A DNA stretch of 23,285 nt from a virus. This document shows, piece by piece, positions 2,858 through 14,218 of the stretch. The position numbers were made by a program, and so were the translations under genes. The stretch lies in IMG/VR virus record IMGVR_UViG_3300031578_000345, positions 1 to 23,285 of that record, one strand, 5' to 3'. How positions within the stretch are numbered: position 1 is the first letter of the stretch; each line of letters opens with the position of its first letter. The notes under the pieces are model-generated. The model was given only the letters and a program-made list of their open reading frames with translations, did no database searches and was not told where the DNA came from.

Positions 2858-4549
2858 TTAATATGCAATTTCTGCATTGATCAGTGTAAACAATGCTGCA
2901 TATTCTAAATCTGTATCATATTTAGCCTTTCCAGTTACCGCACAAGTTAATCTTCCCGGTCCACCGATGTTGATAGGATAAGCAGTATATTTTACTCTTG
3001 GTAAATCAATCTGTAAGGTATAAGAATGTCCGGTTTCAACTTCTACTCCTACAAATTTTACCTGGAAAGCCCGTTCTGTTCCCAAAATGAATAAATCAAA
3101 TTCGGTCTGATCAACAAATTCCGTTACAAAGTTAATTGGCATACTCCGATATCCGTCTCTAATAATCTTTCTCGGTATAACCGTCTGGTTGCAGGTATAA
3201 TGACCCCTGCAGGCGTTATCGATTTTTATTCCAAAACTTTCTATATCATAATCGACAGTTCCCGAAGCCCCTACATTATCTATAGTGATGGTTGCCTGAT
3301 TCCAGGTGAATGGATTAGTAGTTTCCAAACCTACATTGGTTTTCACTACACTTCCTAAATCTTTGGCAATTATTCCACAAGTAGCCCTTAATATCTTTTC
3401 GGCCGTACCGAAACTGAAAGCCAAAGTATTTACTGCTCCACCCAAGAATTGGAAGGCATCCCCTTGATCCCGGTAGACTTCCAAGGTATAAGGGTTAATC
3501 GGGCAGTCTGCATGAAAATCAGTTTGTCGGGGTGTAAATGTCCACTTTTTGGCTGTGCCGGCAGTATAAGCTCCTACCCTTCTTAAATCGTCTAAATGTA
3601 TAATACATTCCGCTTTGTCTACTACCATTTTTGCTCCTACGGAAATAACTGCATTGAAAGCATTCATGGCATTTAAGATTGCAGCACCTGCTGCCTCATC
3701 TCCGGGTAGAGTGGCAGTAGCCATAGTAAGAGTTTGAGCCGCTACTCCGGTAAGAAGATAATCTCCATCACTACTATCAGTCCCTGTAACGTGGATCGTA
3801 TCTCCTACTATAAATCCAGCGGCAACGAAATCACCGGCAACAGTAGTTATGGTATCATCACCACCACCTCCGTCTACGAATGCAATGTCCGTTCTGCTCA
3901 TATATCCCAGGGGAATAGTACATTCTGTCCAAACCCCGGCAACTAAAGCAGGTATATTAGCAAATTTAGGAGTGCCTGTACATCCGGCAATCTCACCTAG
4001 CATAAACTGTAAATCTCCAAGAGCACAATCCTTGTCACATTTGACCCATACTATTAAAGCAGTATCAAGATGCATATCAGTTGATGCTATCAGTTCGGTA
4101 GCTAAAGTCTCACCAGCTGCAACCCCAGCAGTAACGGTTAATTTAACTGCACTACTGCCTTTCTTTTTATCGGCTGAATCTATCCCTGAAATGACCCCGG
4201 CATTAACACCTTCTACCTGATCCCAGGCATCCTCGCAATCTTCTAAAGTTAATACGGTAGCATCGGCTGCTACTGGTCCGACAGGTACATTAATATTACT
4301 TCGTAAGATATGACCGATACTCGCAGGATGTACTTCCAAGACAACATCACCAGTAAAAGCCCGTTCACCCTGATAAGATACTGGCTCATCAGCTACTGCC
4401 CTTTGTGCGGCAGATAACACTTCTTCAATATTCGGTGTTAAGGATTCAGAAATAAACGGTAAAAAAACGTCATTATCCCCAACTCCATCTCTCGTTCCCC
4501 AAGTAACCTCTTTCTTAATTCCTATGTGTCCCCTTGCTCCAATTGGCAT
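2858..4549 (-). CDS. Major tail tube protein with nested inserted domains
   Basis: This 563-residue protein lies between tail-terminator-side genes and the tail chaperones, the place of the tail tube subunit. Residues about 1-95 (IGIKKEVTWGT opening) and 326-563 fit a phage tail tube protein. They are separated by a large insertion of about 230 residues. The insert (about 96-325) resembles a carbohydrate-binding jelly-roll: a DCEDAWDQVEG opening, GSSAVKLTVT, LIVWVKCDKD, AGVWTECTIPL, and a closing ECIIHLDDLRRV. Inside that lies a second module (about 219-295) starting DIAFVDGGGGDDTIT and containing DFVAAGFIVGDTIHVTG. The same module occurs in the beta-helix protein at 7824-10229 and, more weakly, in the adaptor at 6422-7213. 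Tail tube subunits are usually about 150-300 residues, so this one is greatly enlarged and probably displays the inserts on the tail surface. AAAGGAGATGAT precedes the ATG. Confidence 0.8.
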   Translation of the reverse strand: MPIGARGHIGIKKEVTWGTRDGVGDNDVFLPFISESLTPNIEEVLSAAQRAVADEPVSYQGERAFTGDVVLEVHPASIGHILRSNINVPVGPVAADATVLTLEDCEDAWDQVEGVNAGVISGIDSADKKKGSSAVKLTVTAGVAAGETLATELIASTDMHLDTALIVWVKCDKDCALGDLQFMLGEIAGCTGTPKFANIPALVAGVWTECTIPLGYMSRTDIAFVDGGGGDDTITTVAGDFVAAGFIVGDTIHVTGTDSSDGDYLLTGVAAQTLTMATATLPGDEAAGAAILNAMNAFNAVISVGAKMVVDKAECIIHLDDLRRVGAYTAGTAKKWTFTPRQTDFHADCPINPYTLEVYRDQGDAFQFLGGAVNTLAFSFGTAEKILRATCGIIAKDLGSVVKTNVGLETTNPFTWNQATITIDNVGASGTVDYDIESFGIKIDNACRGHYTCNQTVIPRKIIRDGYRSMPINFVTEFVDQTEFDLFILGTERAFQVKFVGVEVETGHSYTLQIDLPRVKYTAYPINIGGPGRLTCAVTGKAKYDTDLEYAALFTLINAEIAY

Positions 4550-6112: not shown

Positions 6113-6418
6113 TTAGGCCACCTCACATAAAAATATTTCATAGTAGTCAAGCCAATCGCTGGGTTTTCTCTTGACTAGATATTCATTACTTCCGTCAACA
6201 ATTTTATCGCCGGTCTGTATGTCCTCGCTGCTCCAGCAAAACATTCTATGGGTTACATTAGTTTGGATATAACTACTCATAGCCAAAGAATCCTGTGGTT
6301 TCAATGAATAGATACAACACCTTAAATTTATCTTCTCATTAACCCAAGCCTCAACGCTATCTCCGGTTGCCGATGCTTTTCGTTTTAAGGTTATAGATTT
6401 ATTGAAAAACTTTTCCAT
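6113..6418 (-). CDS. Probable head-closure (stopper) protein
   Basis: A 101-residue protein immediately after the head-tail adaptor, the usual place of the SPP1 gp16-like or head-tail joining protein that closes the portal channel. It has the expected small beta-barrel pattern: ITLKRKASATGDSVEAW near the N-terminus, LRCCIYSLKPQD, and ending with DKIVDGSNEYLVKRKPSDW, a strand-turn-strand found in many such proteins. Length fits the family. It starts four bases after the adaptor stop codon. Confidence 0.75.
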   Translation of the reverse strand: MEKFFNKSITLKRKASATGDSVEAWVNEKINLRCCIYSLKPQDSLAMSSYIQTNVTHRMFCWSSEDIQTGDKIVDGSNEYLVKRKPSDWLDYYEIFLCEVA

Positions 6419-6421
6419 TTA

Positions 6422-7213
6422 TTACACCGTCCAGTTAATATAAGAACTTAATTCCTTCCTGATATCATCAGTAATGTCGCCATCCTCAAAATAAGTTATA
6501 GAATGGGGACCCAAACTTTCCGATTTTACATTCCTGTCCTTATCATATATTTTCTTGATTACCCTTAAACAGCATTCCTCTACATCACTAGGAACAGTGG
6601 CATATCCTGCATAATAGGTTATCCTGATATTCTTATGCCCTTCCGAAAATCCCGATAAATAATAAATATTATCAATATCAACAAGATAATACTCACTGTC
6701 AATTTCTTCCTCGTTGATCCATAAACCCCTAAAATGACTGATAGTCACGTCATCATCATCTGTATCGGCTACAATGGTATCGTCAAAAGTCAAGACAAGA
6801 GCAGCTACTCCAGCAGTAGCTATAGTCAACAATCCGCTGTTCTCATCAGAATTTTGAACTAATACCTTATCTCCTGCCGTAAAGCCATCATCTACAAAGC
6901 TACCCCCATCATCACGAGTGACTTTTTTGGTGGCAGCATCCCAGACTAAATCATCAAGATTGACAGCCAAGACTGGATATTGCTTGAAATATAAGATTTC
7001 CTGTTCCTTGCCGTCATAACGTTCCTTGACATACAACCTTGCTAAAAATTTTCGATTCAAGGCATTCTCAATAGTCTTGGAGGCCTGATTGATTAACCCC
7101 TCAATATGATTATCCTCATCTCCGCCATCGGAAGTAAGGCCAAGTTCTTTATTCGCTTTGACTAATGTTGTTAAAGCATACGTATCTAATTGACTTACAA
7201 AATCGCCTGCCAT
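6422..7213 (-). CDS. Head-tail adaptor (gp6/gp15-like) with inserted beta module
   Basis: The N-terminal helical part (residues 1-60, ending SKTIENALNRKFLAR) and the C-terminal part (YLVDIDNIYYLSGF, then IRITYYAGYATVPSDVEECC and a final helix) match the phage head-tail connector family, HK97 gp6 or SPP1 gp15 type. These form a ring under the portal. Usual members are about 100-200 residues; this one has 263. Residues about 90-160 hold an extra segment, GGSFVDDGFTAGDKVLVQNS then VLTFDDTIV and DDVTISHF. It resembles the module in the tail tube protein and the beta-helix protein. AAGGAAGGTGATTAA precedes the ATG. Confidence 0.82.
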   Translation of the reverse strand: MAGDFVSQLDTYALTTLVKANKELGLTSDGGDEDNHIEGLINQASKTIENALNRKFLARLYVKERYDGKEQEILYFKQYPVLAVNLDDLVWDAATKKVTRDDGGSFVDDGFTAGDKVLVQNSDENSGLLTIATAGVAALVLTFDDTIVADTDDDDVTISHFRGLWINEEEIDSEYYLVDIDNIYYLSGFSEGHKNIRITYYAGYATVPSDVEECCLRVIKKIYDKDRNVKSESLGPHSITYFEDGDITDDIRKELSSYINWTV

Positions 7214-7823: not shown

Positions 7824-10229
7824 TTATTGAAAATCTTTGGCTAATTGAGCATACCATTGCTTATCTGCGGTCTTATAAGTTAAAGCTAAAATATCTTCTG
7901 CACCTGCATCGGTTGTTAAAACTCCTAAAGTTCCACCTGACCACTTAACTAATTGTTGAACGGTTTGAGTATCTGTACCATCATCGCTTATGTTTACTGC
8001 TGTTCCAGCAATCGCCAATGCCTTTGTAGTTGCTACTTGAATATGATTCTCCGAAGTTCTGATAGCATAATAAATAGTATCTGCCACTAAAGGGGTTGGG
8101 ATAACACCAGAAGTTTTAAATCTAATCCTTGCACCTGTAGGAATATCAACAGTTAAATCTATAATTTCTGTATCTATATGAACCTCTGCTTCAATAATGG
8201 TTGCATCTGATTGAGTTACAATTTCATCAAGTATTCTTGAACCAGTACCGTCTTGGGTAATGATTACTTGAGCATTTAATGCACCAGTAGGAGCAGTTAT
8301 CGTAATAGTAGGATTATGTGCAGCGGTTAAGATTGCCTTATTGCTGTTTCCTAAATTCCAAGCTACGGCAGTTCCAGAAGTCAATACTTGTTCTGTAAAG
8401 TTAATACTGTGTGCTCCTGCTTGGAGTTGCCCACCTAAATCAGGGTCAGTATCTTCTTCTAAATTAGCCATTAAAGTTCCTGTGGTTGGTAAGGTTATAG
8501 CAGTAGCGGCGCTTGTGGTAATCGAAAGCGTATCAGCACCTACCATAGTGATAGTTTCACCTGCTATACTTAAAGTCCCTGGTATTACAAAGTCCCCATC
8601 TTCATCTACGCTAAACAATTGAGTCTTTGAGGCTTGTGTCCCTTTGGCCACCCCAAATACCTGTTGGTCAGCGGTAGGCGTAGCACCAACAATAATTTGA
8701 TACATTGCGTCAGTTGTAGCAGTACAGCCAGTACCGGCAGTAAGGAACAGTAACTGGTTATCAACACCCTCGTCATATTGAACTAACCAATCATCATCAG
8801 TACCAAAGACTAAATCAAGGTCATCATTCACAATACCCCATACTATGTCATCTTCTGCACCCCTATTAACCAGTTCACTGGTCTTATTCGGGGAGAAATC
8901 ACAATTTATTGTCTTGATTCTCGTATTAAAATCTCCGGTTAGATTTAATCCGTTTAATTGGAGATATTGAGTAATGGTAACTGTATCACCTGCTTCTTCA
9001 CTTTCAGCCAATTCTCCCGTAGCAAGAGTTATCGTTCCTGCCGCAACCGAAACAATGGTATAAGTACCATCATTAGAAGTAGACCCTGTAACAACAATAT
9101 CTTCTCCTTCTTCAAATCCAGCTACAAGGAATTGAGCAGCAGACTGGGTGATGGTATCTGCCCCTTCACCACCATCTACAAAGGCTATATCGGTTCCTAT
9201 GAGGTCTCTGTCATCATAAGATTTACAATTAGCAAGGGTTATATCATAACAATCTTCAAGGTTTATTCCCCTGTAATAATTATTGTATGATATAAGTCCT
9301 GTAGCAATAACATTGTCACAATCTGCAAAGTGGAATCCACCCCTAGTGGCAGGAGAGGGACTATTGAGTGTTGCTACACAATTAGTAATAGTAGAATCTG
9401 CAAGGCCCAAAATATTAAATCCGTTAAGACCGTTCCCATCAGCGATACAATTATCAATAACAGCCCCCGATTGGTAATTTATAGTAATACCATGATCTGA
9501 ATTATCCCAGGCTTTGATGTTACTATATGAATTATGTTGGTTAACTATTTGTTCGAGGGTGTTACTGCCCCTGTCGTTAAAACCACAACATCCATTATCC
9601 CAGCAATAGATATCTTGATAGGTATTATATTGACTTCTTCCTGCCGTATTAGTACTAGGATGGAATCCCTCATGGGCATTGTCATGCATATAGATATTTT
9701 TACATACGGCATTATTAACCTCAAAAAGACCTATACCATAATAACCACCATTTTTTGCCTCTACGTTTTCTATCAGCAAATAATTAACTGATTCGTGGGC
9801 AAATATGGGAGAAATGTATTCTGTATCATCTGTTTGAGCATCCCCGTCTATCGTCATATCTTTGATGGTAACGTAATCACAATCGTCAATACGAAAACCG
9901 TAGGCATCTGCAGTTATGACTATCGTTTTACCTATTCCCTCGCCGATAAAGCTAATTGATTTAGCAACCGATAATATATCATCCAGTTCATAATATCCTG
10001 CCCTTAAATAAATTGTATCTCCTGCACTTGCGGCATTATAAGCATCCTCAATACAATTACCAGCCCAGGGGTCAATATCCGTTCCTGTACCTGTGGCATA
10101 GTCTTGAGGATACACGGTATATTGTTGCTGATCTTCTCTATTTGCACCTAGTGGAATGACTGCAAAACCATTTATATCAAATAAACTTATTATTAGTAAA
10201 ATTATTAAAATTATATTTAATTTTTTCAT
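7824..10229 (-). CDS. Exported right-handed beta-helix protein, tailspike-like
   Basis: An 801-residue protein starting with a signal sequence (MKKLNIILIILLIISLF). Residues about 38-340 form a pectate-lyase-like right-handed beta-helix: DTIYLRAGYYELDDIL, SFIGEGIGKTIVI, YVTIKDMTIDGD, then repeated N-rich rungs such as IENVEAKNGGYYGIGL, NIKAWDNSDHGI and DNCIADGNGLNGFNILG. Residues about 344-421 hold an inserted module beginning DIAFVDGGEGADTIT, also present in the tail tube protein. The helix then resumes (LQLNGLNLTGDFN). The C-terminal half is fibre-like, with short repeats and a last part ending KTADKQWYAQLAKDFQ. Beta-helix proteins of phages usually bind or cut host surface glycans. I see no certain catalytic residues. 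The signal sequence suggests export through Sec, which is unusual for a tailspike. Confidence 0.82.
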   Translation of the reverse strand: MKKLNIILIILLIISLFDINGFAVIPLGANREDQQQYTVYPQDYATGTGTDIDPWAGNCIEDAYNAASAGDTIYLRAGYYELDDILSVAKSISFIGEGIGKTIVITADAYGFRIDDCDYVTIKDMTIDGDAQTDDTEYISPIFAHESVNYLLIENVEAKNGGYYGIGLFEVNNAVCKNIYMHDNAHEGFHPSTNTAGRSQYNTYQDIYCWDNGCCGFNDRGSNTLEQIVNQHNSYSNIKAWDNSDHGITINYQSGAVIDNCIADGNGLNGFNILGLADSTITNCVATLNSPSPATRGGFHFADCDNVIATGLISYNNYYRGINLEDCYDITLANCKSYDDRDLIGTDIAFVDGGEGADTITQSAAQFLVAGFEEGEDIVVTGSTSNDGTYTIVSVAAGTITLATGELAESEEAGDTVTITQYLQLNGLNLTGDFNTRIKTINCDFSPNKTSELVNRGAEDDIVWGIVNDDLDLVFGTDDDWLVQYDEGVDNQLLFLTAGTGCTATTDAMYQIIVGATPTADQQVFGVAKGTQASKTQLFSVDEDGDFVIPGTLSIAGETITMVGADTLSITTSAATAITLPTTGTLMANLEEDTDPDLGGQLQAGAHSINFTEQVLTSGTAVAWNLGNSNKAILTAAHNPTITITAPTGALNAQVIITQDGTGSRILDEIVTQSDATIIEAEVHIDTEIIDLTVDIPTGARIRFKTSGVIPTPLVADTIYYAIRTSENHIQVATTKALAIAGTAVNISDDGTDTQTVQQLVKWSGGTLGVLTTDAGAEDILALTYKTADKQWYAQLAKDFQ

Positions 10230-13433: not shown

Positions 13434-14201
13434 TTAGCTTCTATCCTGAAATACCCTGACATAATCGACAAGCATAGTTCCGACTCCAGTATTACCAGCA
13501 TTAGTTTTTGACACATTAAAGTAAGGTTGTACACACCAGATCGGAGTAACCAATCCAACCATACTACCAGTCCCGACCAATACACCGTCAACATAAAACT
13601 TGACTGCTGCAATATTACTTGCATCAATTCTGTAGATGTGATAAACACCGGCTACTAAAACGATACCTGCACAGACATTATCATCATCATTGGTGGCATT
13701 ATCGTCAGTTTCCCATAATAAAACAGTATTCGCGGTATGCTGAACCCTGAACCAAGCATTACAATCAACAGTATCAAGGTCAGCATTATGTGCCCCTGCA
13801 AGTCCCCATACTATTTCAGTCGTACCTGCTACTGCCTGAGTCGGTAATACAGAGATTGCCACTCTTGCCTCGAAGATAAGCCCTTGATTCAGACTTAATG
13901 ATTCCTGGTCATTCCAATCTAAACATGCAATATCCGCAGAAGCCGCAGCGGTTATAGCTAATGAAACAATCCCATTTATTCCGTCTGTTACCTTTGCTAC
14001 CACACCATTTCCTAAAATTAATGTAGACCACGGACATCCTGATTCTACTGTTCCCGTTGCTGGAATAACTACATCCCCTCCCAAGAAGTCATCATAGAAT
14101 ACTATTGGGAACATAGGCACTAAAGACTCTGCATTGGTATTATCACTTACCATTGGAAATCCGGTTTGAAACCAATTATAATTACCTCTACCTCTACTCA
14201 T
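13434..14201 (-). CDS. ConA/LamG-like beta-sandwich protein, possible capsid decoration
   Basis: The 255-residue protein begins MSRGRGNYNWFQTGFP. It then has a beta-sandwich pattern typical of concanavalin-like lectin domains: VFYDDFLGGD, IACLDWNDQESLSLNQGLIF, EARVAISVLP, CNAWFRVQHTANTVLLWETD, VYHIYRIDASNIAAVKFYVD and IWCVQPYFNVSK. Such domains decorate capsids or fibres and may bind glycans. Start choice: ATG 14199-14201 lies nine bases after GGAG, whereas the ATG at 14208-14210 is embedded in the ribosome binding site. It lies three genes after the capsid gene, so a head decoration role is plausible but unproven. Confidence 0.65.
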   Translation of the reverse strand: MSRGRGNYNWFQTGFPMVSDNTNAESLVPMFPIVFYDDFLGGDVVIPATGTVESGCPWSTLILGNGVVAKVTDGINGIVSLAITAAASADIACLDWNDQESLSLNQGLIFEARVAISVLPTQAVAGTTEIVWGLAGAHNADLDTVDCNAWFRVQHTANTVLLWETDDNATNDDDNVCAGIVLVAGVYHIYRIDASNIAAVKFYVDGVLVGTGSMVGLVTPIWCVQPYFNVSKTNAGNTGVGTMLVDYVRVFQDRS

Positions 14202-14218
14202 AATAATCATCTCCTTTC

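Follow-up and report, generated by a model that had tools for sequence, protein, structure and literature searches.

Tail tubes present a highly repeated surface on the virion, and why so many of them carry extra domains is unsettled. The locus described here poses that question twice over: is a tail tube protein really interrupted by one domain that is itself interrupted by another, and what might such a nest be for? We analysed a stretch of 23,285 bases, hereafter the window, which is an entire virus record; all features located in it below lie on the minus strand. The ORF at positions 2858-4549 reads in one frame without breaks and encodes 563 residues, which an earlier note had taken for a tail tube protein split by a carbohydrate-binding-like jelly roll. 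The tube identity was borne out: the ORF matches PF18906 (Phage_tube_2) over residues 4-541 (8.3e-15; 55.5 bits against a cut-off of 27) and PHROG 290 (7.8e-26), and its predicted fold matches the tube of P74-26 (8ed0; VIA Z 30.0, 2.7 Å, 308 residues), as well as those of SH-Ab15497 (Z 28.3) and T5 (Z 24.2). The gene is flanked by small neck-type genes on one side and by the gene for a 580-aa tape measure protein on the other (95-1837; PHROG 991 1.1e-49, PhageMin_Tail 5.6e-20), and this position before the tape measure, together with the Pfam and PHROG matches, supports the tube identity.

A full-length model of the 563-residue protein, built on an alignment of 59 rows, has a mean pLDDT of 82.6; averaged over blocks of 10 residues, pLDDT mostly exceeds 80 in the tube and the jelly roll. 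In this model the protein adopts the fold of a tail tube in which the tube domain is duplicated, like the tubes of P74-26 and T5. By coordinates and modelled secondary structure, residues 1-100 (4250-4549) would be the start of tube domain 1, ending soon after helix alpha1 (78-85), and residues 327-563 (2861-3571) the end of tube domain 1 followed by tube domain 2. This latter part matches 8xan by sequence (2.5e-5), and residues 409-558 match the phiCD508 tube 9gb2 by fold (Z 10.8). An hhalign comparison of the two halves, made with nine empty-site tubes, gave a probability of 0.2% against 0.1% for the reversed control, so that it is the fold from which the duplication of the tube domain is read.

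Between the two tube parts lies the jelly-roll insert, from residue ~101 to ~326; the ~230 residues once proposed for it agree with its length of ~226 including the inner module, while the jelly roll proper has only ~149. Its first part, residues 101-216 (3902-4249), and its closing part, residues 294-326 (3572-3670), were delimited by alignment; the former is modelled mostly at pLDDT 83-96, and the latter supplies strands 300-308 and 315-325. In the protein, the motif EDCEDAWD stands at residue 103, FVDGG at 224 and NAFNAV at 296, and DDLRRV ends at 325. A Cys pair is common in this domain: both cysteines are present in 41 of 51 jelly rolls from tubes and in 51 of 61 from other proteins. The best fold match of the predicted jelly roll (pLDDT ~90) is the turret domain of HFTV1 (Z 13.7, 2.5 Å, 137 residues), followed by CBM30 (Z 13.4), CBM11 (Z 12.7) and CBM22 (Z 12.0); with CBM29 and CBM4, which also match, the CBMs span Z 11-13.4. 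By its predicted fold the insert is thus a CBM-type (galactose-binding-like) jelly roll, in agreement with the first reading. No named CBM family passed its curated cut-off when Pfam was searched to E 5 and NCBIfam to E 1, the sole exception being a sub-threshold match to Mann_GBD_bact (0.14), and no PDB sequence matched up to E 10. The Ig-like families Big_1, Big_2, I-set and FN3 likewise gave nothing above cut-off for the tube protein or the jelly rolls; the fold matches listed are of CBM type, a listing which gives no grounds for excluding Ig folds.

The jelly roll is in turn split at residue ~216 by a module of ~75 residues, which we call the FVDGG module after its motif. The location proposed for it, ~219-295, was right, and its borders are corrected to ~217-293 (3671-3901). 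The module HMM scores 7e-27 on the window protein, and the stretch is present in two contigs that carry one and the same tube protein, 94% identical to that of the window (L003 and L004). In the other tube relatives compared, whose best segment is 43-60% identical, the stretch is missing at a single clean position, always between the same pair of jelly-roll strands, wherever that position is covered. A clean empty site together with such an HMM score argues that the nest is not due to chance. Prediction of the whole protein served the tube and the jelly roll but not the module or its placement on the jelly roll: most of the module has a pLDDT of 38-51, and only three alignment rows had sequence across it. 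Since module fragments were misaligned when added to the full alignment, we excluded them and predicted the module separately from 46 rows, which gave a confident six-strand barrel (pLDDT 94.0, pTM 0.83). Its first and last strands are long, a shape that would lend itself to insertion into a loop. The poor modelling in the full protein is what might lead one to suspect an assembly artefact or a single undivided domain. Given that the module folds confidently by itself, that module-free relatives show the clean site, and that the nest recurs in five distinct tube ORFs on different contigs (the window, L003, L061, L073 and L228; L004 as well, if the repeated protein is counted), we find this explanation hardly credible, since one and the same error would have to recur in independent assemblies.

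What the module is related to is less easily said. Its fold matches include the phi92 endosialidase (Z 8.0), the K1F endosialidase (Z 7.4), the FCWL1 connector (Z 7.2), residues 105-178 of the Mystique tail tube (Z 6.9) and the LKA1 tailspike, the set covering Z 6.9-8.0; according to the tool, a Z of 7-8 is in the range of common arrangements, and most of the top rows were ubiquitin E1 enzymes, which we took to reflect a common barrel arrangement. A comparison with predicted viral proteins showed similarity to portions of baseplate wedge and tail fibre proteins, with no more than 33% identity and none below E 0.001; by sequence the PDB gave matches at chance level, for example antibodies. Neither module nor jelly roll reaches the cut-off of any Pfam or NCBIfam family, and a collection of isolated phages gave no match to either and one weak match to the tube. 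The module often contains GGxGxDxU, an RTX-like motif (in A7, 41 of the 46 rows have it, and so do 48 of the 75 module domains; these counts are biased in that the search pattern itself required most of the motif).

How did the nest arise? We built a tree from the C-terminal parts of 64 tubes, of which 45 carry the jelly roll alone, 13 carry none, five are nested and one is a truncated ORF (L011). The 14 without a jelly roll comprise nine bare tubes, four with other inserts (L081, L086, L089, L090) and the truncated one, and in L067, L072, L074 and L077 the residues flanking the site are joined directly. The inserts would seem to be dispensable for the tube, as judged from the 13 relatives without a jelly roll and the smooth tube of P74-26. 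Most simply, the jelly roll entered the tube family once, at the alpha1 site. The nested state requires four changes on the tree. L073 holds the module in another loop of the jelly roll, which implies that the module entered the jelly roll at least twice. Other decorations occur in the family: at the site of the jelly roll, L081 (3275-4660) has a beta-rich domain of another kind, Pfam naming only the tube, while L086 (3461-4873), L089, L090 and L093 have small additional segments in loops elsewhere, which look barrel-like by eye. We also note that L227 (jelly roll only) and L228 (nested) are two contigs binned in one candidate division WOR-3 MAG, which offers a lead to the host.

The two insertions do not always share the history of the tube that carries them. 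Between the window and L228, synonymous difference (pS) is 0.49 for the jelly roll and 0.47 for the module, against 0.755 and 0.758 for the tube parts on either side. DNA identity is raised between residues ~104 and ~328, except for a weaker block at 179-203. A tree of 92 jelly-roll rows places L228 with the window and L003 (100/99), and the tube tree places it with L227, L061 and L062 (100/100). The lower pS in the inserts, the borders and the discordant trees together indicate an exchange of the stacked cassette at the jelly-roll borders: jelly roll and module moved together from tube lineage to tube lineage.

Both domains are also found well beyond these tubes. The fetched loci contain 178 distinct ORFs with one or both of them, which, with the domains masked, fall into 34 groups (by single linkage, some truncated ORFs forming groups of their own); the jelly roll occurs in 19 groups, the module in 20 and both kinds in five. 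Only five of the 178 ORFs combine the two in one protein, and all five are tubes of the window protein's family. The jelly roll is present at three places in Phage_tube_2 proteins (near residues 27, 100 and 180), at residue 18 of another major tail protein family, and in tail fibre, beta-helix, baseplate-type and head fibre proteins. Within the window, a second FVDGG module (8970-9194; tblastn 53% identity, 3e-16; HMM 3e-27) lies in the beta-helix ORF 7824-10229, and a diverged one (6743-6937; module HMM 2e-13) in the head-tail connector ORF 6422-7213, PHROG 1236 matching the module region in all three proteins. A head-tail stopper-like protein of 101 aa (6113-6418) has no module; its relative in L015 (BLASTP 1e-30) has 188 aa with a module inside, at which the alignment is broken; the 101-aa protein is the empty version of the one in L015. 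Among the remaining carriers, L138 (2903-8056) encodes a tail protein of 1718 aa (Phage-tail_3) with a tandem pair of jelly rolls, and L173 (3350-4261) encodes a small tail-type protein with two modules, one of them at residue 22, near the jelly-roll site (~18) of grouped relatives. A separate 258-aa ORF of the window (13434-14210) has a weak, lectin-like Laminin_G_3 match (0.0087), under the cut-off.

In-frame copies across many unrelated ORFs, several of them within one genome, are what one would expect of neutral or selfish coding elements that spread through phage genes and serve no function in the virion. A module in L176 (3698-4360), within a 221-aa ORF whose start is DNA-binding (HTH)-like by eye and which has no Pfam match, would also fit, and the module is perhaps not confined to virion proteins. 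However, all nameable carriers are virion proteins, and dN/dS between the window and L003 is 0.118 for each insert, like the 0.10-0.18 of the tube parts, which suggests that both inserts are under purifying selection. Visual inspection of the DNA at the module borders, covering the window tube gene, L061, L073, the beta-helix ORF and L015, revealed no convincing target-site duplication or inverted ends, a weak ATGA match being all that was seen. We therefore think the selfish-element explanation improbable.

The chief rival is a structural one. In YSD1, domain 2 of the tube protein is inserted between alpha1 and beta4, buries 950 Å2 on the next subunit and serves to stabilise the ring, not to bind hosts (PMC7385642, PMC8718954). 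By analogy, the jelly roll of the window tube might be a latch that stiffens the ring around the neighbouring subunit, with the module as a spacer or second clamp and no host binding involved. The modelled order agrees with this, in that helix alpha1 (78-85) is followed by the jelly roll (99-325) and then by the tube strand 334-338, the same place in order as in YSD1. Yet tube relatives exist without any jelly roll, the same jelly roll occurs in fibre, beta-helix, baseplate-type and head fibre proteins where a latch would not apply, and the fold matches listed for it are of CBM type, against the Ig type of YSD1. A latch is, in our judgement, unlikely, although less so than a selfish element.

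We rather favour, with fair but far from complete confidence, a display scaffold. In this scenario a siphophage-type tail tube protein would carry a CBM-type jelly roll in the tube domain 1 loop that follows helix alpha1, and the jelly roll in turn a small beta-barrel in one of its own loops, both domains facing outward. Each ring, probably of three subunits with duplicated tube domains, would then bear three jelly rolls with one barrel on each, and the ~60 copies of each domain along the tail might make weak, multivalent and reversible contact with glycans on the host surface, ahead of receptor engagement by the tail tip. Both domains would be recombining cassettes, the jelly roll having entered once, the module at least twice, and the stacked unit having been swapped. 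The suggestion of glycan binding draws on the CBM fold and on four precedents: glycan binding proposed by the authors for the HFTV1 turret domain (PMC12494034), a polysialic acid site in the K1F endosialidase barrel (PMC12632334), experimentally demonstrated host-binding CBMs on tail proteins of 936 phages (PMC6669499), and CBM insertions in skunavirus Dit that confer adsorption to exopolysaccharide hosts (PMC10688798). The anatomy of the nest is well supported, and its function moderately so.

The number of displayed copies is expected to be smaller than first imagined. The earlier note had envisaged a hexamer and hundreds of copies along the tail; the match to the duplicated-domain tubes of P74-26 and T5, which form trimeric rings, 40 of them in T5, points instead to rings that are probably trimers. 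Scaling the ring count from T5 by tape-measure length (580 aa here) suggests ~19 rings and ~57 copies of each insert per tail.

Decorated tubes as such are already known, with CBMs in the 936 phages, Ig-like domains elsewhere, and a single insert at the alpha1 site in YSD1. The lactococcal 936 major tail protein with its TpeX extension likewise puts a CBM decoration on the tail tube; a GFP-fused domain bound host cells and the authors counted up to ~180 modules per tail (PMC6669499). There, however, the decoration is a C-terminal extension that follows an Ig-type adhesin and is made by programmed frameshift (PMC6669499), whereas the window tube, a single ORF of a different tube family, carries its two-level insert internally and in frame. 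The YSD1 / chi tube shares the insertion site found in the window model, between alpha1 and the next strand, but its domain 2 is described as a single-level Ig-type sandwich of the DE variant, latching the ring of a hexameric tube (PMC7385642). P74-26 and T5 pb6 share the duplicated tube domains (Z 30 and 24), the former tube being smooth and the latter bearing a C-terminal Ig-like domain. The N-terminal galactose-binding-like domain of the HFTV1 turret (8qpg), the best fold match of our jelly roll, is a proposed glycan binder on a virus surface as well; it belongs to a head turret of an archaeal virus, has no sequence match to the window jelly roll, and the accessible text reports no nested module in it. 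Evolved Dit of skunaviruses carries a CBM within a tail protein, as the window tube does, but is a distal tail protein at the baseplate, and those forms with two CBMs are not described there as nested (PMC10688798). The endosialidase barrels of K1F and phi92 are module-like in fold (Z 7.4-8.0, within the range of common arrangements, at 18% identity) but belong to enzymes, and their kinship with the module is unproven. In the open-licence PMC literature we found no description of a two-level nested insert in a tail tube; the nest and its two promiscuous domains would appear to be new.

This study adds two widespread phage domains that are unnamed in the Pfam and NCBIfam libraries searched. A more general idea, which we put forward tentatively as having somewhat less than an even chance, is that uncultured phages use them as two tiers of interchangeable display cassettes, able to insert in frame into numerous virion genes and to be stacked one within another, with the alpha1 loop of the tube as a landing site where exchange of whole stacks between phages retunes surface binding. 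Irrespective of that idea, the tube family offers natural tubes with none, one or two inserts, some sharing a site and others using different loops, and in the recombinant L228 a stacked cassette and a tube backbone of different histories. With parts so swapped by nature, the function of tail tube decorations becomes testable by comparison.
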